Shown here: piece after piece, positions 1,017 to 47,568 of the stretch
How the letters are laid out: each line of letters opens with the position of its first letter
Numbering within the stretch: the stretch's first letter is position 1
From: a virus
Length of the DNA: 64,000 nt
IMG/VR virus record: IMGVR_UViG_3300009502_001313
Coordinates: 38,941-102,940 of that record
Reading direction: 5' to 3' (one strand)
Notes under the pieces: generated by a model
Told to the model about the DNA's origin: nothing
Database searches by the model: none
Seen by the model: the letters and a program-made list of their open reading frames with translations, nothing else
Program-made: the position numbers and the translations under genes

Positions 1017-3476
1017 ATGGACATCTTATTTGTAATACCATCAAATGACCGGGTTTATCAAGAACTGAAAACAACCTATTCTTCTATTGAACCACCCACT
1101 TGGGGTTTACTACTTGCCGAGTCGTGTCGTTCCGTAGGACATGAGGTTGGCATTCTTGACATGAATGCGGAGAACCAATCTCACGAACAGGGACTTCAAA
1201 GGATCAAAGAACTAAATCCCAAATGGTTATGCTTCGTTGTCTATGGACAAAACGTAAATGCCGGAACAGTGAGTATGTATGGGGCGACACAATTGTCTAA
1301 ATATCTCAAATCTAGTGATTGCAAAATCCCGAACATATTCGTAGGTTCCTATATGCAGGCTCTTCCCATCAAAGCTCTGCAAGACGAGCCGAGCATTGAT
1401 ATTGTTCTAACTAACGAAGGCGTCTATGCATTGTGGGCACTCGCCGGTATTCAAGCGACAACGGACCCGTCAACCTTGGGACAAATTAACGGAATTGGAT
1501 TTCGAAAAGACGGAAAGCCTTTTTTAACGGCACCTGGAAAGATTGTGCCTCAAGAACGAATGGACATTGATCTTCCCGGCTATGCGTGGGACTTGTTACC
1601 AAAGAAAGAAAAACCCTTTGATCTTTATAGGGCTCCCATGTGGCACGCTAACTACGATGCTAACCTCCGAACACCCTATGCTACATTATTTTCATCATTT
1701 GGATGCAAATTTGGGTGTAATTTCTGTTTATCTGCGGGCACGAAAATAACTCTTTCACATGATAAGAATAAAAAAATCGAAGATGTAAAAATCGGAGATA
1801 AACTCTTAGCATGGGATGAAAATAAATTGGAAATTTCTGAAACCGTTGTAATAGTGTCTAACAATCTACGTTCCGAAAAAATATATCATATTAAACTAAC
1901 CGATAATAAAATCGTGAAATGTACCGGAGAGCATCCATTTTATAACGATGGAACGTGGGTAAACGCAGAAAATCTTAAAATAGGAGATAAAATACTTGTA
2001 GTTGATGCAAACGACAAAAATATATTCAGAATGAAGCATTATAATCCCATGTTTGTCAATGAAACCCGGTCTAAAACTTCCAAAACAAGCAAAGAACGAT
2101 TCATTACGGGTAAAACAATTCCACATCTTTGTACAGAAAAAGGACGAGAAATGGCATCTAAAATGGCCCGAGAAAAAATGTTATCTGATGCTAATCCGAT
2201 GTATTCACGAAAAAATCAAGATAAAGCAAGTGAACGATTTTTAAAAGAAAAAAATCCCAAATGGGACGGTGGAAAATGTGTAAAATTTAAACCATATTAT
2301 CTAAGCAAAAACAGACGAGTGAGAAAATCCGTTAAAATACGTGATAATAATACATGTCAGGAATGTAAAAAAACGACCGGAAAATTGGATGTTCACCACA
2401 TTGATTATAATAAGTATAATAATCAAACTTCAAATCTTATAACTCTTTGTGCCAGTTGTCACTCAAAAACTAATTTTGATAGAGGTTTTGGGGGTAAAAG
2501 ATATACAAAAATAATGTTAGAAAAGGCTATAAACTGCCCCCATTATGTTAGAATTGAAGATATAAAAGTTATAGACGAAAATACTGAAACGTTTAATTTA
2601 CAATGCGAACCTCATAATAATTTTTATGCAAACAACGTTTTGACCCATAATTGCATGATTAATATCATCAACCGAAACGATAATGACCCTATCGGTGTAG
2701 CATCAAACTACAAAGGTATGCGGTATTGGTCTCCGGAATTTATATTGAAACAGTTTGATAAACTCCATGAGATGGGAGTTAGCACTATTCGCTTATGCGA
2801 CGAAATGTTTTTACTCAATTCTAAATACTATGTGCCTATCTGTGAAGGACTTGCCAAAAAAGAATACAGTAAAGACCTCCTTTTATGGGCATATTCACGT
2901 ATCGATACTGTATCCAAAGACCCCGGCGTTTTGAAACTTCTTCGTAAAGCGGGATTCCGATGGTTATGTCTCGGAATTGAAAGCGGAAGCCAAAAAATTC
3001 GTCTGGAAATTTCTAAAGGAAAATTCTTAGATGTCGATATTCGGGATGTAGTAAAAAAGATAGAGGAAGCAGATATTGAAGTCTTGGGAAACTATCTTTT
3101 CGGACATATAGGGGATGATTATGAAAGCATGAAAGCTACATTGGATTTGAGCCTTGAGCTTGCCACCCGTGGATGGAATGCGTATGCAGTGATGCCATTA
3201 CCGGGAAGCCAAATCTATAAAGAAGCACTGGATAAAGGAGATGCGATGCCAACCGACTATTTGGGATTTTCCTTTCATGCATATGAAACGTTTCCAATGC
3301 ATACCAACCATTTGAGTAATAAAGAAGTATTGAAATTCCGAGATGACGCCTTTTTAACGTATCATACAAATCCTAAATTTTTAATTAGAATAAAAGAAAA
3401 ATTCGGACAAGCGGCAGTGGATAACATTTTACAAATGACTAAAATCAAACTACAAAGACAACTTCATGATAAATAA
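1017..3476 (+). CDS. B12-binding-domain radical SAM protein interrupted by an intein
   Basis: ATG 1017 was chosen because it lies 2 nt after the transketolase stop; an in-frame upstream start at 948 would overlap that gene by 68 nt. The first about 230 residues resemble the cobalamin-binding domain of B12-dependent radical SAM enzymes. The radical SAM core then begins with a CX3CX2C cluster motif (FGCKFGCNFC). An intein (1725-2651) splits that motif before its third cysteine. The mature extein would be about 510 residues and carries downstream core segments such as LCLGIESGSQ. The substrate is unknown; the setting among glycosyltransferases suggests methylation or rearrangement of a sugar or cell-surface precursor. 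It overlaps the next gene by 11 nt. Confidence 0.85.
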   Translation: MDILFVIPSNDRVYQELKTTYSSIEPPTWGLLLAESCRSVGHEVGILDMNAENQSHEQGLQRIKELNPKWLCFVVYGQNVNAGTVSMYGATQLSKYLKSSDCKIPNIFVGSYMQALPIKALQDEPSIDIVLTNEGVYALWALAGIQATTDPSTLGQINGIGFRKDGKPFLTAPGKIVPQERMDIDLPGYAWDLLPKKEKPFDLYRAPMWHANYDANLRTPYATLFSSFGCKFGCNFCLSAGTKITLSHDKNKKIEDVKIGDKLLAWDENKLEISETVVIVSNNLRSEKIYHIKLTDNKIVKCTGEHPFYNDGTWVNAENLKIGDKILVVDANDKNIFRMKHYNPMFVNETRSKTSKTSKERFITGKTIPHLCTEKGREMASKMAREKMLSDANPMYSRKNQDKASERFLKEKNPKWDGGKCVKFKPYYLSKNRRVRKSVKIRDNNTCQECKKTTGKLDVHHIDYNKYNNQTSNLITLCASCHSKTNFDRGFGGKRYTKIMLEKAINCPHYVRIEDIKVIDENTETFNLQCEPHNNFYANNVLTHNCMINIINRNDNDPIGVASNYKGMRYWSPEFILKQFDKLHEMGVSTIRLCDEMFLLNSKYYVPICEGLAKKEYSKDLLLWAYSRIDTVSKDPGVLKLLRKAGFRWLCLGIESGSQKIRLEISKGKFLDVDIRDVVKKIEEADIEVLGNYLFGHIGDDYESMKATLDLSLELATRGWNAYAVMPLPGSQIYKEALDKGDAMPTDYLGFSFHAYETFPMHTNHLSNKEVLKFRDDAFLTYHTNPKFLIRIKEKFGQAAVDNILQMTKIKLQRQLHDK
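1725..2651 (+). other. Intein with HNH homing endonuclease inside the radical SAM cluster motif
   Basis: This is an in-frame 309-residue insertion. It starts with Cys1 (CLSAGTKITLS, block A-like) and ends VLTHN followed by Cys+1. A block B-like segment CTGEHPFYNDG is visible. The middle holds an HNH nuclease with CQEC, DVHHIDYN and LCASCHSKTNF. Removing it rejoins GCNF to CMIN and rebuilds the third iron-sulfur cysteine. The +1 residue is itself the cluster ligand, so the unspliced protein should not bind a normal [4Fe-4S] cluster. Confidence 0.93.
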
Positions 3477-6466: not shown

Positions 6467-6536
6467 CGACCCATTGAAAATGAAGATATTTACAAATAAA
6501 ATAACTTTTTGTAAATCTTCGATATACTTATACTTG

Positions 6537-7784
6537 ATGACAACAAAAAGAATAACCAGAGGATATAAGTTTCCAGTTCTTCCAACCGAAGAACAAAAGA
6601 CCTTCTTTGCTAAATCCTTTGGCTGTTCCCGTTTCGTCTTTAATTACTTTCTTAATGCCCGAAAAGACCATTACCTCAAAAATGGAAAAGGAATAGGATA
6701 CAACGATACGGCTAAACTTCTTGTGGCATTGAAAGAGGATAAAGATACTGAATGGTTGAACGAAGTCAATAGTCAATCTCTCCAACAATCATTACGACAA
6801 CTTGATGTAGCATACCAAAGGTTCTTCAAAAAGATTGCGTCCTTCCCATCTTTCAAATCCAAATACGATAAACAATCATTCTGTATTCCTCAACATTTTA
6901 CTTTTGAGAATGGACTATTGACTATTCCTAAATTGAAAGCAATTAAGGTAAACCAACATAGACCATTTGGAGAAAACTATGAGATTTGTTTCCTCACCAT
7001 TTCCAAAACCAAAACTAACAAGTATTTTGTATCATTCATTGTTGAGGAAGATTTCACACTTAAAGTCAAGGAGACAAATAAAAGTGTAGGTATTGATTTA
7101 GGATTGATTGACCTGATGACTTTCTCCGATGGTAAAAAGATTTCCAATCCAAGAATAGCAAAGAAATATCGAAAGAAACTGGAATACCAACAAAGACAGC
7201 ATTCCAAGAAAACAAAGAAAGGTGAGAATAGAGAACGAGCAAGAGTTAAGTTAGCAAAAACATACGAAAAGATAACTAATGTAAAAATGGATTATACTCA
7301 TAAACTTACTAATGATATTGTCAAAAACAACGCAATAATCTGTATGGAAGATTTAAGTATAATCAATATGATGAAAGACCATAGGAGAGCAAGGTCAATA
7401 CAAGAAGTATCTTGGTATGAGATTGTTAGACAACTCAAATATAAGAGTGAATGGAACGATAGGAAGTTCATCCAAGTGGATAGATGGTTTCCATCTTCTA
7501 AAACCTGTAATGATTGTGGATACATAAACCAATCATTAAAGAAGGGTGATAGAGAATGGGATTGTCCTATTTGTAACATTCATCACGATAGGGACTATAA
7601 TGCGTCCCTGAATATATTAAAACAAGGTTTGTGTGGTTTGGGAATCAAATCGCACGATAAACAAAAACGTGGGGAGGCGTCGAGGATGGTATCTGGTAAA
7701 ACAGAGAGAGTAATCAAGTCTGTGAACCACGAAACTCAGAAACTAATCAAGCGGGGAAACCCACTTGCTTTAGCGGGTGGGTAG
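6537..7784 (+). CDS. tnpB: TnpB, RNA-guided nuclease of an IS605-type element
   Basis: Start ATG 6537 gives MTTKRITRGYKF, the usual TnpB N-terminus; an in-frame TTG at 6474 lies too far inside the left end. The 415-residue protein has an intact split RuvC site: D187 in VGIDLGL, E271 in CMEDLSI and D353 in HHDRDYNAS. A zinc ribbon (CNDC...CPIC) lies between the last two. By family knowledge it forms a complex with an omega RNA transcribed from its 3' end and the right end, and cuts the empty donor or target site. Its last codons lie inside the right-end hairpin, as in other TnpB elements. All key residues are present, so it is likely functional. Confidence 0.92.
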   Translation: MTTKRITRGYKFPVLPTEEQKTFFAKSFGCSRFVFNYFLNARKDHYLKNGKGIGYNDTAKLLVALKEDKDTEWLNEVNSQSLQQSLRQLDVAYQRFFKKIASFPSFKSKYDKQSFCIPQHFTFENGLLTIPKLKAIKVNQHRPFGENYEICFLTISKTKTNKYFVSFIVEEDFTLKVKETNKSVGIDLGLIDLMTFSDGKKISNPRIAKKYRKKLEYQQRQHSKKTKKGENRERARVKLAKTYEKITNVKMDYTHKLTNDIVKNNAIICMEDLSIINMMKDHRRARSIQEVSWYEIVRQLKYKSEWNDRKFIQVDRWFPSSKTCNDCGYINQSLKKGDREWDCPICNIHHDRDYNASLNILKQGLCGLGIKSHDKQKRGEASRMVSGKTERVIKSVNHETQKLIKRGNPLALAGG

Positions 7785-15879: not shown

Positions 15880-17181
15880 TTATTCTTTTTTATGAAGTAG
15901 GGACTGTAAACTCCTACCATCTAAATCATAGAATCCATCTTCCCTCCACATAAACCCATCTTTTCTATTGAGATTTAGATTTCGTAAATCATACGGGATT
16001 TCGGGAAGACTTATTTCGTGGTTTTTTGCTGCATTTAAATCAGCATCCATCGTGTTTCCACAATGTTTACATGAATAAATTTTTCCTTTCCGATTCGATT
16101 TACGAACATTTCCACAGCAACTACATCTCTGAGACCTATAAGTTGAAGATTGATAAATTAACCTAATTCCTCGATCTTCACACACCGACTCTATCTTGTC
16201 TCTAATTAATGTATTTTGCCAATGAGAAAGTTTCTTACTTGTTCGATTTTTATATCCAATATTCCGGATTTCTTCTAAATTTATTTGCTTTATATTATCC
16301 AAATTCAAATGATTTATTGACCAATTAACAAAATTTTCTTGATGATCCTTTGCTCTTTTAAATGCATTCGATCCACGGGTTTTTTTCAACACAGTATTCA
16401 ATATTGAATCTAATGAATGTCCGTGATTATCAGTCAATAATGTTGTAATTCCATTGCTACAAGTCAGCACCGTTTTCAATCCCTGATCACATCCAATAAT
16501 ATTTCCTTCGTCTCTCAATTTAGGGATATCAATCTCCCATCTAATATCAATTGAATTATTTTTAACCAGAAATGAATTTAACATCTTCCCTCTATTCATT
16601 AATCCAATAGAATGACGGTCAAATTTTACGGGAATTTTAATCTTGATTTTATTTGTTGTTAAACATTTAAACTGAAGAAACCCATTAAAATCATTGGATT
16701 CCGGGGTAAACATAAAATCCGCACAAATAGAATTTAATTCCATATTAGCAATATAACCATTTGGTTTTTGTGGAATATTTTGTTTAATTTTACGGATTAA
16801 TAATTTAAGACTTTTCTTTGATTTTCCAGATAATTTATGCTTATTGAAAATATAAATTCTTTTTCTTTGTTTTTCTAACGATGCCTTAATCATTCCCATC
16901 GCCTGAGTCATACAACACTTGAGCAATCTTCCTGATAGATTTGTAATTAATCCCGAATTACTAATTATATTGGACGTAACAAATTGAGGAGCATCATACT
17001 TATTATTCTTAATATCCATCATGTGAATAATATTTTTGTCATCGGTCCACGAGTAAGGAGTTATCCACAAATAATCGATAAAATGCTGTAAGCATCTTCG
17101 GTATTCTTTAAGAATAAAGTTTAAATTCTCCAATTTTATATTGTTCGAGAATTTAATTGTATGTTTACTTGATTTGATCAT
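15880..17181 (-). CDS. tnpB: TnpB of the IS607-type element
   Basis: The 433-residue protein has an intact RuvC triad: D232 in IIGCDQGLK, E303/E304 in NLEEIRNI and D381 in MDADLNAAKN. A four-cysteine zinc ribbon lies at about 363-384. By family knowledge it is an RNA-guided DNA endonuclease whose guide RNA comes from the element's right end. The N-terminal half is much diverged from the IS605-type TnpB at 6537, so the two elements entered independently. The start overlaps the tnpA stop as ATGA. Confidence 0.88.
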   Translation of the reverse strand: MIKSSKHTIKFSNNIKLENLNFILKEYRRCLQHFIDYLWITPYSWTDDKNIIHMMDIKNNKYDAPQFVTSNIISNSGLITNLSGRLLKCCMTQAMGMIKASLEKQRKRIYIFNKHKLSGKSKKSLKLLIRKIKQNIPQKPNGYIANMELNSICADFMFTPESNDFNGFLQFKCLTTNKIKIKIPVKFDRHSIGLMNRGKMLNSFLVKNNSIDIRWEIDIPKLRDEGNIIGCDQGLKTVLTCSNGITTLLTDNHGHSLDSILNTVLKKTRGSNAFKRAKDHQENFVNWSINHLNLDNIKQINLEEIRNIGYKNRTSKKLSHWQNTLIRDKIESVCEDRGIRLIYQSSTYRSQRCSCCGNVRKSNRKGKIYSCKHCGNTMDADLNAAKNHEISLPEIPYDLRNLNLNRKDGFMWREDGFYDLDGRSLQSLLHKKE

Positions 17182-17774
17182 TTTACAATTTCCAATTGAT
17201 CGGTCATATTTATAATTTCTTTGATTTTCTTGGTTTTATTATACGCCTTTCTCATTCCGTACAATCTGGCACAGAAAGAATAAATTATGGATACCAAGTC
17301 TTTTATCAAATCCTTATCATCTTCTTTATCCATATGAATTACTATAATTTCTGTTCCTAATTTCTTTGATAATTGCTCGATATAATTAAATCCAAAACGA
17401 GTCAATCTATCTTTATTCTCTACAACAATTCTGGTTGGATTGCTATCAATCATTGTCCACAATTGTTTTCTTTTATCATTCATACCAGAGGCAATCTCTC
17501 TATATATTTTTGATATTTGCCAACCGTTTTTAACACAGAACTCTTCACATCGTTGAACTTGGTATTCCAATTCTGCTTTTCTGGAGTGATTTGAAACTCT
17601 ACAATAAATTACGGTTTTAATTTCCTTCTCTTTGATATTTTCATCATCATAAACTAATATAGTTCCGGTTGATAACTGTTTTGTTTTGGCAGGAAAATTC
17701 CCTTCTTTGAACCATTTCCAAGCAGTTTTATATGTTACACCGTATTGTTTTGCCCATTTAGACAATTTAATCAT
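17178..17774 (-). CDS. tnpA: IS607 transposase TnpA (serine recombinase)
   Basis: The 198-residue protein has an N-terminal MerR-like helix-turn-helix (residues 1-45, with TYKTAWKWFKEGNFPA). A small serine resolvase domain follows, beginning VIYCRVSNHSRK with S61 as the predicted nucleophile, and later containing VENKDRLTRFGF. The length and domain order fit IS607 TnpA, which catalyses transposition with little target specificity. It is coupled to tnpB by overlap. Confidence 0.9.
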   Translation of the reverse strand: MIKLSKWAKQYGVTYKTAWKWFKEGNFPAKTKQLSTGTILVYDDENIKEKEIKTVIYCRVSNHSRKAELEYQVQRCEEFCVKNGWQISKIYREIASGMNDKRKQLWTMIDSNPTRIVVENKDRLTRFGFNYIEQLSKKLGTEIIVIHMDKEDDKDLIKDLVSIIYSFCARLYGMRKAYNKTKKIKEIINMTDQLEIVK

Positions 17775-17899: not shown

Positions 17900-20800
17900 T
17901 TAATTACATTTACTCCAGCCGCATTCTTTGTTGGAACATGTCTTACAACCTTCTATATAAATCAATTTAGATCCACATTGTTGACATACTTCAGATGTTA
18001 TGACTTTTTCTCCCTCTTTGATATAATGTTTTAATACTCTAGCAACACACCGTTCAAAATCAAGAAAACCAACACTATTTTCTTTTGATAACTGATCGGC
18101 TACTATTTGTAATGGAGTACCATGCCTTAAACTCATTGAAACCAACCGTGAAAGCGTTCCCATTTGGCCACCAAAAATGATTCCTATATCTTCTAAACAA
18201 ATTTTTTCTTCACCATTAACAGTTAATAAATCGTATTTTCCTTTATTAACTTTTTTAATAAACCCGGTCTTGTGTTTCTCAAAATCTAACTTATTTTCAA
18301 TGTCTTTGGTTACAAAAATTTCATATACCGTTCCCGCCAACTTGCCTACTAACGCAACAAAACGTTCTTTTTTACCATTAATAACTACCGCCATTTCATG
18401 AATATCACAAGGAAGCAATTCCGGACGTTTTGGGGCATCATGACGTTGGACATATGTCTCCGCCTTTAATTCTTCCTTATGCACTAAAACACCTTCTCGA
18501 CTGCCATCTCTATATACAGTGACTCCAATAACTCCCAATTCATGAGCTTTAATAAAAACATTTGAAATTTCTTCTTCTTCACAATCTTTAGGCAAATTTA
18601 TTGTATTGTGAGATATAATATTATCTATTAAATAATTGTGAGTATCCTCTACCTCAATGTCATATACCTCATTTGAGGAATTTTCTATCGATACAATTTT
18701 TAACAAATATAAATTCTTATCCCAATCACATAATTCCAATAAAGAATTATTACTTCTCATACTCCTATATTTATTACGTCTCAACGTTCGAAGTGAACCA
18801 TAATATTTTCTATCTAAATTCTTATAAGATAATTTTTTTAATTTTTCCGGGACGGGTATAATATTGGAATATTCCAATATTTTGTTTTTATGCAATTCAA
18901 TTGGTTTAAAGCAATGATAATCAACATCAACCCCGTATGTCCAATTAGATAACCTTCCAGTTTTAACAAATGCATCCGATTTTCGTGGTTTTAACCCAAG
19001 TTCGCAACACATCTGAAACACAGAATCTACCAAATGTTTAGAATATCCTTGGTATACCATCAATTTGTTTCCAGCAATATATCCATCCAATGTTAATCCG
19101 TTTATGAAACTTATTTTTTCCAACTCCGACCCGTTTATTATTTGACTAGGAACCTTTTTACTAATACAATTATGTCCATCTAATAAGTTAACGATATATC
19201 GACACAATTTCCGTGATGTTATATAAACGGAACGAGTATTTTTAGTTCTCTTATCATATTGAACATTTACCATTTTTACTTTAAATATTTTTTTACACAA
19301 TTCAGAAAAAACTTTTTCCACCTCATCATCCGCCGTTGTTATTCCGACATTCCCCGTAATTTCCACTAAATGTCCATCGGATGCTATCATTCCCAGAAAT
19401 AACGCCAAATCACTGTCCATTTTAATTGGAAGAAAAATTAAATTACTATTCGTGTTATCCTCAAAATCCGTTGATATCGGTAAATGTCCTTCATTATTAG
19501 TTTCATATTTAGATGATCTACAATACACATAATCATTAACATTTAAGTTATCAACAGGTGTCCATCCATCATTTGTTAATAGTTTATGTGTATTAGCAAA
19601 TTCGATTATATTTCCATTATTAAATCGTATTATTTTTGTTGGTTTAATTCCCCCAGAATAATGTTTGGTAACTTGTTTCCAATCTCCGTTCATATCTTTT
19701 ACCTTCACATCTAATGAACGATCAAACTTATCATCACCCCTAGCAACTCCTAAATCTTCTATATTTATTATTCCTTTATTTGTTAAAATTTTGGTTCCTT
19801 TAGCAACACATTTACTAACTGAAAGAGAAATATTATTCGCCATCGCTGCCAAAACTTTAAGGTGCCATTCTGGGGTAATATCTCCCGCTACTTTGAATAC
19901 ATTTTGTTCTGTTTTTGTAAGATATTCACATCCTTGACAACTCCCAGCATGATCGGATACATAATCATAAATCTTCTCAGAATTTTCTTTATAATTAGTT
20001 TCAACAAACTTCTTAAAAACAGGATCTACTAAATAAACCTTTTCATATGTTTTATTTTCCTTTTCAATCTTACGAGTAAAAACAAGACCAAATACTGGTT
20101 CACCGCTGCTAGAACAATCAGCAATATAGGAGATTGTATTATGATTAATAATTCCATTCGAAGTTAAATATGTATGATCCTCATTATTTATTTCAATGTC
20201 AAAGGTTTTAATTTTTTCTCTAACGACATCCGCAACTTTAAGATGAAACATTTTATGCAATTCGAAAGGAAAATCCAAATTGACATATTCAAGTGCTTCA
20301 TTCAGAATATCCCGATTAAACCAAACCAAATCATTGCAATGATTTCTACAAATATTGCCATTGAATTTCTGATACAACGAATGTTTAGACGATAATTTAG
20401 TTTTAATTTCCGAACGACATCTTATAGATTCATCATAAGTCAGATAAATTTTTTCGAAATCGATGGTATACTTAAAATCCGCTAACAATTTCTTTTTTCT
20501 ATCGCTTAAAAATCCTATTTTATCTCTAAATGCCAAATTACTGGCTTTATAATCAATTCTAAGGGAAAACATTACATCATTAAATCCTCCCGTGCCTTTT
20601 ATCAATTTGCGAATACTCGAACGAATGCCGAGATATGTTAAAAGTTCCTGGACTTCAAGTGTTATATGTTCAAACTTGGAAGAAAAAGTAATAGATCCGT
20701 TTGAAATACTACCATCAGTTTCAAACAATCCCCGTAAATATGCACAAATAACTTTCTTCGGAGATCTGAAAATAAGTTCTGGAACATGATATATATGATC

Positions 20801-23800
20801 GGACTTTTCCTTCACACTCGAAATATTATCCTTTTTTGCCAACCCATTTTTAACTAAAAAATTTCCAATATTTATCGAATGAATGGAAATTTCATACATA
20901 TTTTTATTTTTTGCCTTGGAAATATAAGAATCTATACCAAACAAATTTTTTGTCAATGTCTGTATATAAAGGGCAAAATCATAATCCTTACTATCTGCGG
21001 GAAACCTGATTCCATCTATCTTCCCATTTTCAGATCTAAATTTCGTGCTCCCATCTCCAGTGAATATGCCCATCCATTCCGCAAATTTTTCGTTTAATTT
21101 AGATGGGAGAATATTATCAGAAGAATTGAAATGATTACTCGCATTAGAACAATCAAGTTCCAGTTCCTCACTGGTTTCCGTCGAACTATTTTGCGATAAA
21201 ACAACAATATCTCCGACCTTAATATCAGGAGAGAATTCCCACGAATATTTTCCATCTTTTAAAATTCGAATTCTATGAGTAGAAGATGTTTTAATCCGTC
21301 TTCCATCTTCTAATCGTATAGAATATCCGTTGGTTTCACCATTATTAAAAAATGCAGATAGTTTATTTTCGGCATCTTCACTCGCCACTAACATTTCGGG
21401 AACATTATAATTAAATTCCTTTTCTCTCGGATGTTCCGCAACAATGTCTTTTATTTTTATAAGTCCTGCATTTGTAATAATTCGTGTATTTTCTTCAATA
21501 CATCCGGTTGGAGCAATAGAAGTAAGACAACTATTATAAATACCGTATTTTTTGATATCAGATGCTAATTTTTCAACACTAATTCCCATGAATTCTTTTT
21601 CGACGAAGAATCGTTTGCTAGCATCCATAAAAATATCATAATCAAAATATGGATACTTTTTCTTATATTCTTTCGCCATTTCCACGCTTTTACGCATAGC
21701 AACTAATGTTTGAAACCTACAAATTTTTTCCGCCAAATTAGCGGCAGCAAGTGAATCAAAGGGAATTCTCAATTCATATAATAAATGAGCAAATCCCATA
21801 ATACCTAACCCGATTGGTCTAACATTCAAAGTTTCTTTTCTAATTTTTTCAATAGGATATCGATTGTTATCAATAACCCCATTCATATACACTACTGATT
21901 CATCAACGGCAACTTCAAATGATTTCCAATCAAATTCGTTATCTTTAATAAATTTATGAAGATTAAAAGATGCTAAATTACACGAAGTATATGGAATATG
22001 TACATATTCCGAATTTCCACTTAGAATACCGCTTTCGGTAATAAAAAATCCGACTCCCGGAACTGTAATACACCCCACATTCTCAGTTGAATATAAACGA
22101 ATAGAATCTATTTTTACTTTCTGCCCATCATCTAGTAAAACATAATCGCCTTCTTTAAGGAAACGCAATTCTTTAAGTTCATAAATGCCGTTATCAATGG
22201 ACGTAACCAACTTATGATTATGAGTGATATAAAAAATTTCTCCTGTTGAAAACGCAACCGCATAAACCTCTGCAACCCCTGCATTAAAGTAACCACAGGT
22301 GTCAGTAAACTCTCCATCGGGCAGAAGTATTTTATCTTTAGAGGTTATCTCTTTGATTTCTTTAATTCCATTTGAGGTTTTTACATATAAGGATTTACTA
22401 GAAGCAAAACAGCAGGGATTTGAAAAAATATTACGAGTAATGTGTTTACAAGTACAACGATCCGCCGCAATTTCTCCATTAAAAATACCGGGCTCGGCTC
22501 TTTTCCAAGCATTATGAATAATTTTATCCCATAACATTTTATAAGTATATAGTTGCCCAGAATTATCTTTTAATTCATTTTCTTGACCATCTACTACATT
22601 CCGAACTTTAAACACCTTGTTGGGACTTTGTTTTAATACCTTGTAAAAAGCAGAATCTACCCATACAGAAAAATTGCTTCGGGTATATTTGGTAGTATCC
22701 TCAACTTTCGCATCAATAAATTGAAGAATATCGGGATGGTAACAATTATGGACAAAAACATCATTTGCTACAAAATTATTGTATTCCGGAACAGAAATAT
22801 CATATACATCTATTTCATCTCCTTCTTCAATACAAATAACTTTATGATTAGAAAATTGATTTTTAAATCCATCTTTATAATGTCTTTTATAATCTTCACC
22901 CAAAAAACCAGCATTCCTAACTATTTGATTTTTTCTTTTTTCTCTTAATTTGTTTTTTATTTCTTCGGATTTTTCTATACCATAAAATTCTTCCCACGTT
23001 TTTCCTTTTTTGATTTTTGCTAAATTCTCTCTTCCTTTATATGTCATTTTTTCTAAATTATCAGGATCATTATTTAAAGAATTTCCATCTATATGATGAA
23101 TTATTTCAGAGTCATCATCGAATCCATTATTATCATTTAAAATAGTATTCGAAATATTCCCATATTTATATTCCGACACCGCAATATGTTCTTTAATTGA
23201 ATTTCCTTTTGTTATGTCTAAAACATATTCAGCTCTATTTTTTTGTTGTCCCTTTCTAAAATATATTCGTTTATGTAAAACAGAAACACTATCTCCCAAT
23301 ACTAAATCCCCAGCATTTTTATATGTATAATTTGATAATAATATTTTATGATCTGGAGTACATTGTAAATGGGAATCATTATCAAATTTAATTTTAATGG
23401 TTTTTAGTTTTCCGGTTTTCCACACTTTATTGGATTTTTGTATTTTTATATTTCCTTTCAAATCCGTACAATACACAATTGGAAATTTACCAACCAAATC
23501 TTTTATTTTGATTTTTCCATTTAATGTTGAAATTAAAGTTTCTCCAGAAACACAGGAAAGCATCGACATACCTGCTCCTCTACGTTTACCACCCTGTCTA
23601 ATTCCATCTAATACAGAATCGAATATTTGAATGAATGCCATCACTCCCCCCGAATTAGCACTGATGGTTTTTACATTTTCATTCGATCCTCTTAGTTTTG
23701 AAAAATTAAACCCCACTCCTCCAGCCGCTTTTGTAACAAAAGCGGTATCCTTCATGGAATTCATAATGTCTTCAATGCTATCTTCAATATCCAAAATAAA

Positions 23801-24016
23801 ACATGAAGACAAAGTCCCATTTCTTTCTCCCTTGGTATTAAGATTCATCAATGTCGGAGTACTAGGTATAAAAACTCTATTGAGAATATATTCGTGCATT
23901 TTAGAATCTAAAACAGATAACCTTTCTGTCATTTGACTCCAGGAACTTTCGGATTTTAAATAATACCGTTCTTGTAATATCTTTTCTATATGTGGCTGTA
24001 ATTTTAGAGTTTCCAT
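17900..24016 (-). CDS. nrdJ: Adenosylcobalamin-dependent (class II) ribonucleotide reductase with four inteins
   Basis: The 2038-residue precursor contains a 778-residue class II reductase split by four inteins. Extein landmarks in order: SSCFIL, RRGAGMSMLS/CYHPDI, NPC/SEYVHIPYTSCNL, SIAPTG/TISYIADCSSSGEP, SVSK/TINLPKD, and a C-terminal zinc-binding tail (CQQCG...CSNKECGWSKC) seen in NrdJ. It would reduce ribonucleotides to deoxyribonucleotides using coenzyme B12, without oxygen-dependent radical generation, to feed phage DNA synthesis. All four inteins must splice for activity, as each sits in a conserved substrate or active-site segment. No accessory beta subunit gene is present, as expected for class II. 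The IS607 element lies downstream. Confidence 0.93.
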   Translation of the reverse strand: METLKLQPHIEKILQERYYLKSESSWSQMTERLSVLDSKMHEYILNRVFIPSTPTLMNLNTKGERNGTLSSCFILDIEDSIEDIMNSMKDTAFVTKAAGGVGFNFSKLRGSNENVKTISANSGGVMAFIQIFDSVLDGIRQGGKRRGAGMSMLSCVSGETLISTLNGKIKIKDLVGKFPIVYCTDLKGNIKIQKSNKVWKTGKLKTIKIKFDNDSHLQCTPDHKILLSNYTYKNAGDLVLGDSVSVLHKRIYFRKGQQKNRAEYVLDITKGNSIKEHIAVSEYKYGNISNTILNDNNGFDDDSEIIHHIDGNSLNNDPDNLEKMTYKGRENLAKIKKGKTWEEFYGIEKSEEIKNKLREKRKNQIVRNAGFLGEDYKRHYKDGFKNQFSNHKVICIEEGDEIDVYDISVPEYNNFVANDVFVHNCYHPDILQFIDAKVEDTTKYTRSNFSVWVDSAFYKVLKQSPNKVFKVRNVVDGQENELKDNSGQLYTYKMLWDKIIHNAWKRAEPGIFNGEIAADRCTCKHITRNIFSNPCCFASSKSLYVKTSNGIKEIKEITSKDKILLPDGEFTDTCGYFNAGVAEVYAVAFSTGEIFYITHNHKLVTSIDNGIYELKELRFLKEGDYVLLDDGQKVKIDSIRLYSTENVGCITVPGVGFFITESGILSGNSEYVHIPYTSCNLASFNLHKFIKDNEFDWKSFEVAVDESVVYMNGVIDNNRYPIEKIRKETLNVRPIGLGIMGFAHLLYELRIPFDSLAAANLAEKICRFQTLVAMRKSVEMAKEYKKKYPYFDYDIFMDASKRFFVEKEFMGISVEKLASDIKKYGIYNSCLTSIAPTGCIEENTRIITNAGLIKIKDIVAEHPREKEFNYNVPEMLVASEDAENKLSAFFNNGETNGYSIRLEDGRRIKTSSTHRIRILKDGKYSWEFSPDIKVGDIVVLSQNSSTETSEELELDCSNASNHFNSSDNILPSKLNEKFAEWMGIFTGDGSTKFRSENGKIDGIRFPADSKDYDFALYIQTLTKNLFGIDSYISKAKNKNMYEISIHSINIGNFLVKNGLAKKDNISSVKEKSDHIYHVPELIFRSPKKVICAYLRGLFETDGSISNGSITFSSKFEHITLEVQELLTYLGIRSSIRKLIKGTGGFNDVMFSLRIDYKASNLAFRDKIGFLSDRKKKLLADFKYTIDFEKIYLTYDESIRCRSEIKTKLSSKHSLYQKFNGNICRNHCNDLVWFNRDILNEALEYVNLDFPFELHKMFHLKVADVVREKIKTFDIEINNEDHTYLTSNGIINHNTISYIADCSSSGEPVFGLVFTRKIEKENKTYEKVYLVDPVFKKFVETNYKENSEKIYDYVSDHAGSCQGCEYLTKTEQNVFKVAGDITPEWHLKVLAAMANNISLSVSKCVAKGTKILTNKGIINIEDLGVARGDDKFDRSLDVKVKDMNGDWKQVTKHYSGGIKPTKIIRFNNGNIIEFANTHKLLTNDGWTPVDNLNVNDYVYCRSSKYETNNEGHLPISTDFEDNTNSNLIFLPIKMDSDLALFLGMIASDGHLVEITGNVGITTADDEVEKVFSELCKKIFKVKMVNVQYDKRTKNTRSVYITSRKLCRYIVNLLDGHNCISKKVPSQIINGSELEKISFINGLTLDGYIAGNKLMVYQGYSKHLVDSVFQMCCELGLKPRKSDAFVKTGRLSNWTYGVDVDYHCFKPIELHKNKILEYSNIIPVPEKLKKLSYKNLDRKYYGSLRTLRRNKYRSMRSNNSLLELCDWDKNLYLLKIVSIENSSNEVYDIEVEDTHNYLIDNIISHNTINLPKDCEEEEISNVFIKAHELGVIGVTVYRDGSREGVLVHKEELKAETYVQRHDAPKRPELLPCDIHEMAVVINGKKERFVALVGKLAGTVYEIFVTKDIENKLDFEKHKTGFIKKVNKGKYDLLTVNGEEKICLEDIGIIFGGQMGTLSRLVSMSLRHGTPLQIVADQLSKENSVGFLDFERCVARVLKHYIKEGEKVITSEVCQQCGSKLIYIEGCKTCSNKECGWSKCN
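18605..19810 (-). other. NrdJ intein 4 (LAGLIDADG type)
   Basis: Residues 1403-1804 (402 aa) start CVAKGTKILTNKG and end NIISHN before Thr+1. LAGLIDADG-like motifs are FLGMIASDGHL and FINGLTLDGYI. Splicing restores SLSVSK-TINLPKD. Confidence 0.93.
20138..21502 (-). other. NrdJ intein 3 (LAGLIDADG type)
   Basis: Residues 839-1293 (455 aa) start CIEENTRIITNAG and end GIINHN before Thr+1. Two dodecapeptide-like motifs are visible (WMGIFTGDGST and LRGLFETDGSI). Splicing restores SIAPTG-TISYIADC, the most conserved loop of the enzyme. Confidence 0.93.
22013..22411 (-). other. NrdJ intein 2 (mini-intein, Gly-Asn end)
   Basis: Residues 536-668 (133 aa) start CFASSKSLYV and end GILSGN before Ser+1. 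No endonuclease domain fits in this length. The penultimate residue is Gly instead of the usual His. Splicing rejoins NPC to SEYVHIPYTSCNL, matching the conserved NPCGE-type segment of reductases. Confidence 0.85.
22745..23554 (-). other. NrdJ intein 1 (HNH type)
   Basis: Residues 155-424 (270 aa) start CVSGETLIST and end VFVHN before Cys+1 of CYHPDI. A block B-like CTPDHKIL is visible. An HNH-like segment, IIHHIDGNSLNNDPDNLEKM, indicates a homing endonuclease of the single-HNH type. Confidence 0.9.
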
Positions 24017-27106: not shown

Positions 27107-28711
27107 TTATTCGACAGTCTCTTTTACTTTTTCTTCATCTTTGCCATCTCCTTCTAAATGCTCTACCGATTCATCTATTTTGGAGTTTGCGGGACGATAT
27201 ACCATGATATAATTATCACAAATGGATTTATAAACTTTTTCTTTGAATTCGGGCTGTTCATTGGCGACACGAACAAATTCATTCGCATTAAGAATTTGAT
27301 TATCACACATTTTAAATGTATATCCCGCTTTTGTGCCGGTAATCAATCCATGATCTTTCATGTAATCCAACCAACTTGCGAGATTTTGAATACCGCTATC
27401 ATAGTGGATATCAAAAGACGCTGTTCGGAAAGACGGGCCGAATCGAGTCTTTGTCACTTGAGTTTGAATAGTTCTACCAATTACTTCTTTTTCTTTAGTA
27501 GATACTCGACCAACATTTTTAGTTCTAACTCGCACACTTGCCGCATACCGAAATGCCATACCTCCCGGTTCCAGATAGGGGTCACCAAATGATACTGCTT
27601 TAAGATTTTGTCGAAGTTGATTTGTGAATACCGCACAAATCCGTTGTCGAGCAATAAGTCCATTAAGTTTTCTCATTGCTAAAGAAAGCAGTTTAGATTT
27701 ATCGGTTCCATACCCAGCGGCATCATAATCAGCTTCAAGTTCTTTCTTTGTAGGAACCGAGGCGATTGAATCCGTAATAATGGTAACTAATCGATCGGGA
27801 TTTTCTTTTCTAGTCTCTCCGATAATAGCTTCCAAATGCCCAAGCATCTCTTCCAAATAGGAACAAGGTACATAAAGAAGATCTTTCACAGAAACGCCCA
27901 ATGCGGTCCAAAAATCAGGAGCCGCAGCGTATTCCGGATCAAGCATAACTGCAAATCCACCTTTTTTCTGCGTCTCTGCAATAATGTGAGCACATAGTAA
28001 AGATTTCCCGGAATTATGATTTAACATTCCATTACCAAAATAACAATGATCGGGATGATCGACCGTAATATCAACAATGTTATGTTTTCCTATCGGAAAT
28101 ATTTCTGTAACTTTCCAAAAAGATAATGCGTTTGTATATCCATCTTCACGATAAAAAATAGAGTGTCTTCCTGGAATCAAATCTTTACATTCCACCCAAC
28201 CGTCATTAGTAAAAAACCGGTGTTCACGGCTTACTTTAATACTATTTCCGTATTCAGTAAATACTTCAAATGTATCAAGTAATCCCTTTTCTACATATTT
28301 TGTGATTTTAACAAATTCCTCTTTTACAGTTAAAACCGCCACAGGGATTCCTTGTTCCATCAAGGGTTTTACGTCACCAATTTTAAACTTATTTAAGATT
28401 TTTACATCATCGCCAATTCTTACTGCAATTTCGGTATCTTCGGTGACACAGGATTCGAGCCCATTGAATTCAGAAATTCTCCCGGCAGGAAGACCGGCAT
28501 TTGGTCTATTACAAATAGCCAAATCTAACATGGTGCATCCAGTTGATACCCAATCAATTACATTGGAGGGGTCTTCTTTCTCATCCAAAAAATAAGCTAC
28601 TTTTTGACCATCCTTTTGTCGGCCATTAAGAGCCTTTTGAAGAAAAGTAGCCAACTTATCTCGACTTGCGGTTTCATCTTGTTCTACGTGAGTTGATTTC
28701 GTTTTTGCCAT
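27107..28711 (-). CDS. uvsX: UvsX/RecA-type recombinase with an intein in its P-loop
   Basis: ATG 28711 (MAKTKSTHVEQ) was chosen because an in-frame start at 28744 would place the terminator hairpin 28730-28760 inside the gene. The 534-residue precursor contains a 146-residue intein; the spliced product is about 388 residues, the size of UvsX. Extein motifs are the Walker A formed only after splicing (GLES/SGKS), LVTIITDSIASV as Walker B, and AVFTNQLRQNL in the L2/switch region. It would catalyse strand exchange and recombination-dependent replication with gp32. It ends in an acidic tail, as in UvsX. Confidence 0.92.
   Translation of the reverse strand: MAKTKSTHVEQDETASRDKLATFLQKALNGRQKDGQKVAYFLDEKEDPSNVIDWVSTGCTMLDLAICNRPNAGLPAGRISEFNGLESCVTEDTEIAVRIGDDVKILNKFKIGDVKPLMEQGIPVAVLTVKEEFVKITKYVEKGLLDTFEVFTEYGNSIKVSREHRFFTNDGWVECKDLIPGRHSIFYREDGYTNALSFWKVTEIFPIGKHNIVDITVDHPDHCYFGNGMLNHNSGKSLLCAHIIAETQKKGGFAVMLDPEYAAAPDFWTALGVSVKDLLYVPCSYLEEMLGHLEAIIGETRKENPDRLVTIITDSIASVPTKKELEADYDAAGYGTDKSKLLSLAMRKLNGLIARQRICAVFTNQLRQNLKAVSFGDPYLEPGGMAFRYAASVRVRTKNVGRVSTKEKEVIGRTIQTQVTKTRFGPSFRTASFDIHYDSGIQNLASWLDYMKDHGLITGTKAGYTFKMCDNQILNANEFVRVANEQPEFKEKVYKSICDNYIMVYRPANSKIDESVEHLEGDGKDEEKVKETVE
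28013..28450 (-). other. UvsX mini-intein
   Basis: The 146-residue insertion starts CVTEDTEIAVRIGDD and ends GMLNHN before Ser+1. A block B-like VSREHRFFTNDGW is visible and there is no room for a homing endonuclease. It lies between GLES and SGKS of the Walker A motif. Confidence 0.93.
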
Positions 28712-43382: not shown

Positions 43383-45383
43383 TTATATCGTGGCAATTCC
43401 TCCCTTACCTAAAGGAAGGGATTCCTTGCCACAAAAAGGTTGACTATTCCATTCGTATTTAGAATTCCCACAATCCCAGATTCGATCATATCCATTTAAC
43501 TGCATATTCTCCCACTCGGTTAATTCTGGATCAAATATATCTAATTTTTCATTTAATATATTCTTTCTAAATCCGAAACGATGATATCGGATAGCATAAC
43601 CCGGCTTAAAATACCAATAATTTGGTTTAGTTTCTTTTTTAAACAAAAATCCGAGTTTTTCATACATTTTTCCGGTGCTCCAACGTTTATCGGAATATGA
43701 AAATATTTTTACAGGGGAGTGGATTCTAATAAAATGTGTAAACAATTTAGATGCTCCTCCAACAACCACTTTTGATGTAGCATATCTTAATAATTCATAT
43801 TCTCCTGGCATAGACACCGATCTTCCCAAACTAAGTCGTGGCTTCCCAAAAGTCATAATTGCCACCAATATACTATTTTCATCAAACAATCCCAAATTAA
43901 CTAATGAAGAGCATCCTCCCTGAATATGATTTTTATTTAAAAAAGCATTCGCAAGTTTAGATGTAACAACTTGTATCGAACACTGTCTCGCATATATTTT
44001 ATTTGTGGATAGGTTTAGAATATGTTGTAACCGAACTTGAACAATATCCCGGTTATTTTCCCATTCATCCTCAAATATTGTAATTAATCTAATTCCCTTA
44101 GATTGACATCGTTCTAACTTATCCAAATGATATAATTTAGATTTTTTACCATTAGATTCAGAATGCCAGAATAATCCATTATATTCTATAGCCAATGCCT
44201 TTGAAGGAATATAAATATCCAATTCTCTATTACCAAGAACACTTCTATCCTTTTCTATAATCTCTTCTCTCAAAACAATAGAATGAATATATGAAACTAT
44301 TTCTTTTTCGGCATATGAAAAACCGGCGATATTAGGATAGCATATTAAACATCTCGGATGTCCATTTCCATCGAAATGATCTTGAAAAACATTGCCACAT
44401 TTTTTACATTTAACTGAATATAAAAACTCAGACGAGGATCCTTTATATTCATCAACCGTAAATAATACTTCTATATTATCTAATACCCGCTTTGAAGAAC
44501 ATAGCAATTTATAATTGTTTTTTCTTACAATTTCTGCTATTTTATTTCGAACCTCTTCAATCTGAGTAGGATATTCAACTCCAAATTTCTCCTTATAGTG
44601 TGCCTTTATATCTTCTTTAATTGTCAGATTCTGAAATGGATTTTTAACTCCATATTGTTTTAAATATGATTGTATCTTATTCTCTTTAATATGAGAAGAT
44701 TGAGAAGGATTTTCTACTCCATAACGAAGTAGATTTGTTTGCTTTATCTTTTCCTTAACCGACTCCGATTGCCATGACCATTTCTTTCCATATCGCTCCA
44801 AATTAACTTGTTGAATTTTAACAATTACTTCTTTAGCCTTACTAGCATTATCTACCCCATATTTTTCTAAACAAGTCTGCTTTGCCTTTTCCGGATTAAC
44901 ATATGTCTCATTTCCGTACACTTTTAATTTAGTACATTTAATTTTTTCCAGCCGTTCTTTATTGTTGGCAGTAAACAAAGCACTACATTTATTAGAACAA
45001 AACCTTCCATTCCTCTTTTTATATGCCCAAAAATCCTCATTACATAGTTCACATTTTTTTTGTTCCCATATATTAATATCCTTTTCAACATGAGTCATCT
45101 TTATAGATCGAACACTGGCAGTACTTACATTCGCACATTTAGAAGAACAATATTTTCTATACCCATCCTTTATATTAAGGAATTTGGTGGAAGACTTACA
45201 TTCCACACAAATTCCACAGTTAACTCCTGATTCATAATTTAACCACTGATAAATTTTTTCTGAAAATGAACCCCCAGAAAACTTTTCATTTATTTCATTA
45301 TAAAATAACGAATGTTTTGCTTTTATTATTTGAACAAATGAATCTTTATTACTTTTTATAAGATTCAATATAATGGTCTTCAT
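43383..45383 (-). CDS. Homing-nuclease-like protein: zinc fingers, six YGV repeats, Vsr-type nuclease, GNAT-like C-domain
   Basis: In order, the 666 residues hold a Cys-rich N-terminus (CGICVEC...YCSSKC), a second Cys4 finger (CELC...FCSNKC) and about six repeats built on YGVxNPSQ. A zinc ribbon (CKKCG...CLIC) follows, then a PD-(D/E)XK/Vsr-type core (RELDIYIP, AIEYNGLFWHSE, FEDEW) and a C-terminal domain with HIQGG and a GGASKLFTHFI segment of acetyltransferase-like look. Related nucleases of phages are homing endonucleases. The C-terminus runs into hairpin D, unlike its paralogs. It is 2 nt from another family member, inserted beside the tail tube gene. Confidence 0.75.
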   Translation of the reverse strand: MKTIILNLIKSNKDSFVQIIKAKHSLFYNEINEKFSGGSFSEKIYQWLNYESGVNCGICVECKSSTKFLNIKDGYRKYCSSKCANVSTASVRSIKMTHVEKDINIWEQKKCELCNEDFWAYKKRNGRFCSNKCSALFTANNKERLEKIKCTKLKVYGNETYVNPEKAKQTCLEKYGVDNASKAKEVIVKIQQVNLERYGKKWSWQSESVKEKIKQTNLLRYGVENPSQSSHIKENKIQSYLKQYGVKNPFQNLTIKEDIKAHYKEKFGVEYPTQIEEVRNKIAEIVRKNNYKLLCSSKRVLDNIEVLFTVDEYKGSSSEFLYSVKCKKCGNVFQDHFDGNGHPRCLICYPNIAGFSYAEKEIVSYIHSIVLREEIIEKDRSVLGNRELDIYIPSKALAIEYNGLFWHSESNGKKSKLYHLDKLERCQSKGIRLITIFEDEWENNRDIVQVRLQHILNLSTNKIYARQCSIQVVTSKLANAFLNKNHIQGGCSSLVNLGLFDENSILVAIMTFGKPRLSLGRSVSMPGEYELLRYATSKVVVGGASKLFTHFIRIHSPVKIFSYSDKRWSTGKMYEKLGFLFKKETKPNYWYFKPGYAIRYHRFGFRKNILNEKLDIFDPELTEWENMQLNGYDRIWDCGNSKYEWNSQPFCGKESLPLGKGGIATI
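43390..43432 (-). repeat. Hairpin D, IS-end-like sequence overlapping the nuclease 3' end
   Basis: GTGGCAA/TTGCCAC form an outer stem, and the inner AAGGGAGG-type arms enclose a CTTTAGG loop. In the minus sense this has the form of an IS1341-type right end. It encodes the last residues (KESLPLGKGGIATI) of the nuclease. Confidence 0.55.
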
Positions 45384-45385
45384 AT

Positions 45386-46495
45386 TTATTTAAAACTTAA
45401 TGTTCCACAATCCCAACATTCATACCCACCAAATAGTTTCTTTTCCGGCATACTTTCTCCTACTAATTGATATTTTTTATTCTGAAAAAATACTTTATTA
45501 AAAATCCTTCTATCCACCTCAAAACTTCCATCGAAATTAAATTTATCCGATAAAATCGATGATAATAGATTCTTTGTAGCATCATTCCATTCATTTTCAA
45601 ACAAATGAATCAATTTTATATTTTTATCTTCACATTGTATAGTTTTATTCAAATGATAATATTGATTCTTTCTTTTACACGAATGCCAATATACACCATT
45701 ACATTCTACCGCCAACTTTATCGAAGGAATGTATACGTCTAATTCCCCTCGAATCACATTTCTAACATTTGGAAACACAATCAATTTCGTATTTTGAAAA
45801 AAATCCGTGACTTCATCCTGAAAGCCGGAATTAGGATGACATCGCCAACAAATCGGTATTACTCCCCATTGTAAATGATGATGGAAAATATTTTTACATA
45901 TTTTACACCTAAATTTCAACATTCTGTCTTTTATATTGGTAAAACTATCTATATCAAATAATGCCTCTATTTCAGATCCAAGTCGCTCCCCATTCTCACA
46001 CTGATCAATAAATGCTTTTCTCCGATCTTCTTTTAAACGATACAGAATGGAACTTCGGTGACAATCAATATATTTTTTTGCATTTCTTATACGCTTTTCT
46101 TTTACCGCTTTAATCCCAAATGGACTGCTAACTCCATATCTATTAAAAAACGTCTGCTTCTTTTTTTCTTTTATAGAAATATCTTTAGAAACATTGTCAA
46201 CTCCATACTTTTTTATAAAACCACTTTTTATACGCTCTCTAATTTCTAAATTCTTATTTACACATCTATTCGAGCAATATTCTCGATACCCATCATTTAT
46301 TCCAATAAACGGTGTCTGATTCCTACATTCCTTGCAAACTCCTCTAATTCCATGCTTGTAAAAATACAACTTCTCCGAAAAAGTGCTTCCATCTAACTTA
46401 AAAATTTCATCATATAATTCTCTGTGATATCTTTTTATGAAAAAAGAATAACAACTTTTATTCTCTTTTATTATTTTATCCAAATCAATTAACAT
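45386..46495 (-). CDS. Homing-nuclease-like protein, short member (two YGV repeats, Vsr-type nuclease)
   Basis: ATG 46495 aligns with the start of the neighbouring paralog; an in-frame TTG at 46513 is the alternative. The 369 residues contain an N-terminal Cys finger (CKEC...YCSNRC), two YGV repeats, a zinc ribbon (CKIC...CWRC) and the nuclease core (GELDVYIP, LAVECNGVYWH, LFENEW). It ends with a short YECWDCG tail, without the large C-terminal domain of the paralogs. A sigma-70-type promoter lies just upstream. The core Asp and Glu are present, so it may be active. Confidence 0.75.
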   Translation of the reverse strand: MLIDLDKIIKENKSCYSFFIKRYHRELYDEIFKLDGSTFSEKLYFYKHGIRGVCKECRNQTPFIGINDGYREYCSNRCVNKNLEIRERIKSGFIKKYGVDNVSKDISIKEKKKQTFFNRYGVSSPFGIKAVKEKRIRNAKKYIDCHRSSILYRLKEDRRKAFIDQCENGERLGSEIEALFDIDSFTNIKDRMLKFRCKICKNIFHHHLQWGVIPICWRCHPNSGFQDEVTDFFQNTKLIVFPNVRNVIRGELDVYIPSIKLAVECNGVYWHSCKRKNQYYHLNKTIQCEDKNIKLIHLFENEWNDATKNLLSSILSDKFNFDGSFEVDRRIFNKVFFQNKKYQLVGESMPEKKLFGGYECWDCGTLSFK

Positions 46496-46518
46496 ATCAC
46501 ATTCTGGTTTCAAACATA

Positions 46519-47493: not shown

Positions 47494-47568
47494 TACGAAA
47501 TATGGAAAAATATTGACTTCCTCATTGTTTTGTATAATACTTACCATTATACGAACCAAAGGCATATT

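Follow-up and report, generated by a model that had tools for sequence, protein, structure and literature searches.

The DNA examined here (the window) is a 64,000-nucleotide stretch of a viral genome, positions 38,941 to 102,940 of IMG/VR record IMGVR_UViG_3300009502_001313. It carries nrdJ, a gene for a class II ribonucleotide reductase whose predicted product is interrupted by four inteins (Table 1). The reading frame is open over the whole 6 kb and, when cut at four boundaries of the type Cys...Asn/Cys, Ser or Thr (a slash marks a splice point throughout), gives 1260 amino acids (aa) of intein and 778 aa of extein. Both totals had been given in a preliminary description made from the sequence alone, and both were recovered from these boundaries; the +1 residues following inteins 1 to 4 are likewise as claimed there, namely Cys, Ser, Thr and Thr.

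Table 1. Parts of the nrdJ gene and intein-bearing genes of the same phage, in window positions unless otherwise indicated (ORF, open reading frame).
Feature	Position	Strand	Basis or remark
nrdJ, class II ribonucleotide reductase precursor with four inteins, 2038 aa	17900..24016	(-)	ORF and profile matches
Extein 1 (aa 1-154)	23555..24016	(-)	alignment to intein-free orthologue L005
Intein 1 (aa 155-424), 270 aa, HNH endonuclease, SMLS/C...FVHN/CYHPDI	22745..23554	(-)	profiles, same-site relatives L036/L116 and L041
Extein 2 (aa 425-535), C-terminal residue is the Cys of NPC	22412..22744	(-)	boundaries and 1xje alignment
Intein 2 (aa 536-668), 133-aa mini-intein, NPC/C...LSGN/SEY	22013..22411	(-)	motifs, weak profile, fold model
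Extein 3 (aa 669-838)	21503..22012	(-)	boundaries and 1xje alignment
Intein 3 (aa 839-1293), 455 aa, LAGLIDADG, APTG/C...INHN/TISY	20138..21502	(-)	profiles
Extein 4 (aa 1294-1402)	19811..20137	(-)	boundaries and 1xje alignment
Intein 4 (aa 1403-1804), 402 aa, LAGLIDADG (marginal), SVSK/C...ISHN/TINLP	18605..19810	(-)	profiles
Extein 5 (aa 1805-2038), C-terminal part, cysteine-rich tail	17903..18604	(-)	boundaries
RecA/UvsX Walker A mini-intein, 146 aa, GLES/C...HN/SGKS	28013..28450	(-)	empty in L005
HNH intein, 309 aa, in B12-binding radical-SAM protein, before third Cys of CxxxCxxC	1725..2651	(+)	coordinates counted from ORF start
Terminase large subunit with split intein and two LAGLIDADG inteins	L013:566-6706 (G001 60566-66706)

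The reductase and its four inteins

In the unspliced 2038-aa ORF the NrdJ model is matched piecewise, and three stretches exceed the threshold for the intein family PF14890. Excision of the inteins raises the score against TIGR02504 (NrdJ) from 397.1 to 499.9 bits (curated cut-off 399.95), and the PF02867 match of the 778-aa protein is continuous over all 523 model positions. Alignment with the structure of Thermotoga maritima NrdJ (1xje), a check proposed in the preliminary description, runs without a gap through all four junctions, which fall after T. maritima residues 216, 322, 492 and 597 as counted from that alignment; the claim that each intein sits in a conserved segment of the reductase is supported. 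Asn263, Cys265 and Glu267 of the spliced protein align with T. maritima residues 320, 322 and 324, which we take to be the active-site Asn, radical Cys and Glu of that enzyme. Intein 2 is inserted directly after Cys265 (NPC/S), the radical cysteine.

All four inteins possess Cys1, a block-B His, a terminal Asn and a +1 Cys, Ser or Thr, and in each case protein splicing is predicted. PF14890 is matched over its cut-off in inteins 1, 3 and 4. Intein 1 also matches the N- and C-terminal intein models and HNH_3 (26.9 bits, cut-off 24.8), inteins 3 and 4 match the intein splicing domain and LAGLIDADG_3 (69.7 bits for intein 3, only marginally for intein 4), and the homing endonucleases of these three may still cut. 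For intein 2 the profile scan gave no endonuclease match. These are the types assigned in the preliminary description. An AlphaFold model of intein 2, built from an alignment of five inteins in which the four partners are themselves mini-inteins, had a mean predicted local distance difference test score (pLDDT) of 72.8. A fold search with this model gave 776 PDB rows at E values up to 10; the 50 of them that were listed are all inteins, intein-like proteins or hedgehog Hint domains. A model made from the single sequence (pLDDT 46) was discarded.

Two loci, L004 and L005, were found when IMG/VR was scanned with a single extein piece. The first lies on a 368,758-bp record to which the window's 64,000 bases align in full, with a single mismatch; its nrdJ is identical base for base, and the two records may share one sample. 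PF02867 matches in this 369-kb record are confined to NrdJ, and NRDD matches are lacking. Since NrdJ is the sole reductase catalytic subunit found there, the phage would be able to make deoxynucleoside triphosphates (dNTPs) only after removal of all four inteins. The host possesses a reductase too; the dependence of dNTP supply on four splicing events, as originally proposed, would hold for the phage's own synthesis.

The second locus, L005, is on a 32-kb viral contig and encodes a NrdJ of exactly 778 aa. It has no inteins and aligns gaplessly with the spliced protein, all four sites included, at 83.2% DNA and 88.2% protein identity, a direct answer to the refuting condition named in the preliminary description. 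Nonsynonymous (dN) and synonymous (dS) divergence amount to 0.071 and 1.05; the ratio of 0.067, an average of both branches, indicates strong purifying selection, under which the reductase has been maintained. Such a pair, a four-intein reductase and an intein-free orthologue predicted to yield the same 778-residue product, constitutes a natural experiment, in which occupied and vacant sites that both occur in nature could be used to test what four inteins cost and how their three endonucleases home.

This orthologue bears directly on two other explanations. One or more of the segments might be a natural insertion domain of the reductase, retained in the mature enzyme, as the preliminary description had allowed, and the score of intein 2, below the curated Pfam intein cut-off, would be in keeping with this. 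L005, at 88% identity, does without all four segments, however, and intein 2, lying right after the radical cysteine, has Cys1, THNH, a terminal Asn and a +1 Ser, together with the modelled intein or Hint fold described above; we regard an insertion domain as extremely improbable. It is also very unlikely, in our judgement, that nrdJ is a dead or degenerate gene in which inteins piled up because the phage no longer needs a reductase. The intein-bearing nrdA genes of Campylobacter phages have been called degenerating (PMC3653736; this and the other papers cited by accession are drawn on for parts of their text). Against such decay in the window stand the frame, fully open across 6 kb, the purifying selection on the extein and the intact active-site residues.

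Insertion sites in related viral reductases

Occupancy of the four sites was surveyed in the best 80 of at least 566 reductase loci, ranked by similarity to extein 1, together with L041, which came from a profile scan with intein 1. The 80 were chosen by similarity, and occupancies among them are not frequencies for phages at large. A single scan of genome contigs gave two distant reductase loci.

Four inteins were found in the window's phage alone among the 80 loci; L060 has two. Site 1 is occupied in L036/L116 (near-copy L037) and in L041. At site 3, L049 has an intein spread across two reading frames (split or frame-broken), L041 has a similar intein one residue past the site, and the NrdA of Campylobacter phage PC14 has a mini-intein. 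At least 16 of the 80 loci have inserts at NP/C, one residue before the insertion point of intein 2, where the radical Cys becomes the +1 residue; this count takes L087 from coordinates only and includes two close pairs, L085/L087 and L072/L078. The insert of L122 begins with Ser. We considered whether intein 2 arose by a one-residue slip of an NP/C intein. This reading is not supported, since profile comparison places intein 2 nearest to the Campylobacter site-3 mini-intein (probability 95), ahead of the NP/C inteins of its own clade (probability 53).

Three of these loci deserve separate mention. The NrdJ of L041 (IMGVR_UViG_3300025842_000040) has a site 1 intein, the N-part of an NP/C intein followed by a stop, and the two-frame intein near site 3, that is, three interruptions near the same sites as in the window's nrdJ. 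L048 (IMGVR_UViG_3300025162_000116) comes from the same metagenome as the 369-kb record; its NrdJ is 53% identical in extein 1 and has a different intein at NP/C. The nrdJ of L055 (L055:7001-10384) is interrupted after SQGGAR by a LAGLIDADG-like frame (recognized by eye) devoid of intein motifs, perhaps a group I intron.

Inteins 3 and 4 share 22.7% identity, and no close kinship was seen among the four. The nearest relatives of intein 1 occupy the same site in two further viral contigs (42% and 37% identity); no intein of its own genome exceeds 30%. The profile scan added L042 and L043 as partial relatives. Protein scans of viral contigs with inteins 3 and 4 gave matches in the same phage only. 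In a named phage collection their best matches were mostly to inteins of Staphylococcus and Bacillus phage DNA polymerases and terminases, at less than 30% identity, and intein 1 had eight matches, all below 30%. Recent copying among the inteins of this phage was considered and rejected: the top-scoring pair, both in the terminase, is 28% identical over 382 aa, and the next kind of pair 38% over 101 aa. The values of 28% for the top pair and 22.7% for inteins 3 and 4 argue for separate lineages rather than recent copies. Because the inteins are mutually unlike, and other viral reductases are occupied at site 1, at site 3 and a single residue away from site 2, four separate invasions by homing are the best reading, in agreement with the independence claimed in the preliminary description.

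In a tree of 66 loci (76 of the 81 were long enough, and near-copies were removed) the window's nrdJ and L005 are sisters, so that every intein either entered the gene on the branch leading to the window or disappeared on that leading to L005. Because endonuclease domains persist in three of the inteins, entry is the more economical account, and we infer that the inteins were probably acquired on the window branch. In both phages nrdJ follows recA, an exonuclease gene and dnaB, with two additional ORFs before dnaB in L005. The identity of 88% for NrdJ compares with 60% for DnaB, 53% for RecA and 45% for the exonuclease. The high likeness of the two NrdJ proteins could reflect exchange of nrdJ between lineages or slower change.

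The +1 residue at site 1 is most often Val in the 77 intein-free loci (44 of them), followed by Ile (26) and Cys (4), with Tyr, Phe and Ala once each; all three of the scored carriers of a site 1 intein have Cys. The chance of this is 0.0004 if the loci were independent, which they are not. In the window's clade (L045-L060; 15 of 16 loci scored, L055 being unscorable) none of the 15 has Cys, all having Ile or Val; the codon is ATT in L005 and TGT in the window's nrdJ. L075, the tree neighbour of L116, has Cys and no intein. Since Cys occurs there without an intein and is absent from the window's own clade, the intein may favour alleles that already have Cys, or may introduce the Cys itself; for the window's phage the latter seems the likelier. 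In the mature enzyme, the presence of intein 1 goes with Cys in place of Ile at +1.

We are highly confident that this is a functional adenosylcobalamin-dependent class II nrdJ, belonging to a T4-like jumbo phage, into which four distinct intein lineages have inserted; splicing and enzyme activity are predicted. The gene would be translated as a single 2038-aa precursor, from which each intein would excise itself by means of Cys1, its terminal Asn and the following Cys, Ser or Thr, the four excisions leaving the 778-aa enzyme. Inteins 1, 3 and 4 would have spread by cutting intein-free nrdJ in co-infecting phages, and intein 2 may have lost its endonuclease or never had one.

Several observations weigh against this interpretation. 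The LAGLIDADG_3 score of intein 4 (21.7 bits) is marginal, slightly below the cut-off of 22.5, and the PF14890 score of intein 2 (22.0 bits) is below that of 35.8. Intein 2 ends in Gly-Asn, as had been noted in the preliminary description. The Thr three positions before the block-B His, present in inteins 1 (TPDH) and 2 (THNH), is replaced by Ser in intein 3 (SSTH) and by Ala in intein 4 (ANTH); the block-B pattern Thr-x-x-His is typical of inteins, not universal. Site 4 is free of inserts in all 74 other sampled loci that cover it. Lastly, a single contig provides the only close relative without inteins, and the preference for gain over loss is one of parsimony.

Intein load of the phage

The genes of the 369-kb record include a T4-like portal protein, terminase, prohead protease, tail sheath, UvsX/RecA and DnaB; this set of genes indicates a tailed phage. 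The 7,102 bases that open the record recur unchanged and in direct orientation at its close (L010:1-7102, L028:1657-8758). The record belongs to those whose ends are classed in IMG/VR, and an end repeat is not mentioned for it.

Nine genes of this record bear 15 inteins, 14 continuous and one split, as counted with intein models and with profiles made from inteins in hand, those of the phage itself included; no further intein match below an E value of 0.5 was found in the record. Four are in NrdJ, three in the terminase, two in the portal protein, and one each in the prohead protease, RecA, a papain-like peptidase, a radical-SAM/B12 protein and two glycosyltransferase-like proteins (one assigned by a marginal PF00534 match, the other named by eye). 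The N-part of the split terminase intein (about 33 aa, an early split) follows LVLDE and its C-part ends SSN/CAFIEK; between the halves sits a DUF7487/homing-endonuclease gene. The last LAGLIDADG intein of the terminase has a C-terminal His-Gln. This layout resembles the "fractured genes" and AceL-TerL.

Among 25 comparison records, picked for related reductases or inteins (two of them from intein-1 matches in the named phage collection), the intein model was matched in 15 and not in 10. Salicola phage SCTP-2 has 11 matches in seven open frames, and the 77,435-bp record of L060 (G016) has nine in 77 kb; the window's phage has 16 in 369 kb, two being the repeat copy. Other intein-rich phages therefore exist, and heavy intein loads are not confined to the window's phage. 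The load of this phage, more than its four-intein reductase, is what stands out, and makes the phage useful for asking how heavy intein loads are tolerated.

Could the inteins be of use to the phage? They might be kept in nrdJ as a post-translational switch that delays dNTP synthesis until circumstances are favourable, responsive for example to redox state, a possible cue because Cys265 directly precedes Cys1 of intein 2. In favour of this, the inteins of nrdJ interrupt motifs of the active centre, others are found in the phage's genes for packaging, capsid and recombination, and splicing of a mycobacterial DnaB intein is described as dependent on conditions (PMC6195587). The patchy occupancy in related nrdJ genes and the kept endonuclease domains fit a selfish spread that brings no benefit, and we consider a switch distinctly improbable. 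A bolder proposal is that the 15 inteins jointly gate the life cycle through a common splicing cue such as redox state, the load being maintained and not merely tolerated. We give this very little credence; if it were true, splicing would have to precede dNTP synthesis by NrdJ, recombination by RecA, and the head assembly and DNA packaging that depend on terminase, portal and prohead protease.

Directly downstream of nrdJ (15880-17774, minus strand) is a transposase pair composed of a serine-recombinase-like ORF (198 aa, identified by eye) and a TnpB-like ORF (433 aa, PHROG transposase), and a second TnpB-like ORF is at 6474-7784. Three genes at 43383-45383 (-), 45386-46513 (-) and 47530-49074 (+) comprise a free-standing homing-endonuclease-like gene (phrog_3339) and two DUF7487 genes; DUF7487 is also the domain of the nuclease gene that separates the two parts of the terminase.

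Comparison with known systems

The preliminary description called four inteins in one phage gene unusual. This must be qualified, since sites 1, 3 and the vicinity of site 2 are occupied in other viral reductases and a four-intein ribonucleotide reductase is in print, that of Trichodesmium erythraeum (Liu, Yang, Meng 2003; cited in PMC1635734 and PMC4649490). Like the window's nrdJ, the Trichodesmium gene has four inteins; unlike it, that gene is cyanobacterial and contains three group II introns, whereas the window's is a phage gene with a single open frame and a close intein-free relative.

Intein 2 may be likened, by context alone, to the split intein NrdJ-1, whose native exteins are NPC and SEI and for which a +1 Ser is obligatory (PMC13123727). 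Both have the local context NPC/SE with a +1 Ser; NrdJ-1 is split, whereas intein 2 is a continuous mini-intein.

Phage reductase inteins are known from Campylobacter phages, SPbeta, P1201, c-st and nrdJ fragments of ocean metagenomes (PMC3653736). The genes treated in the consulted parts of that paper have at most two putative inteins each, against four in the single class II gene of the window. The reductase of Campylobacter phage PC14 shares with it an intein at site 3. Salicola phage SCTP-2, like the window's phage, has several inteins in essential genes, its 11 intein-model matches in seven open frames comparing with 15 inteins in nine genes. For the intron- and intein-dense Zeta crAss-like phages up to three inteins per genome were reported in 2021 (PMC7886860, in the part consulted), the largest number for one phage that limited searches of open-licence papers brought up in print; the 15 found here are five times that figure. 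A four-intein reductase, then, is already known, and the window adds one in a class II gene of a phage, and in a phage of unusual intein load.

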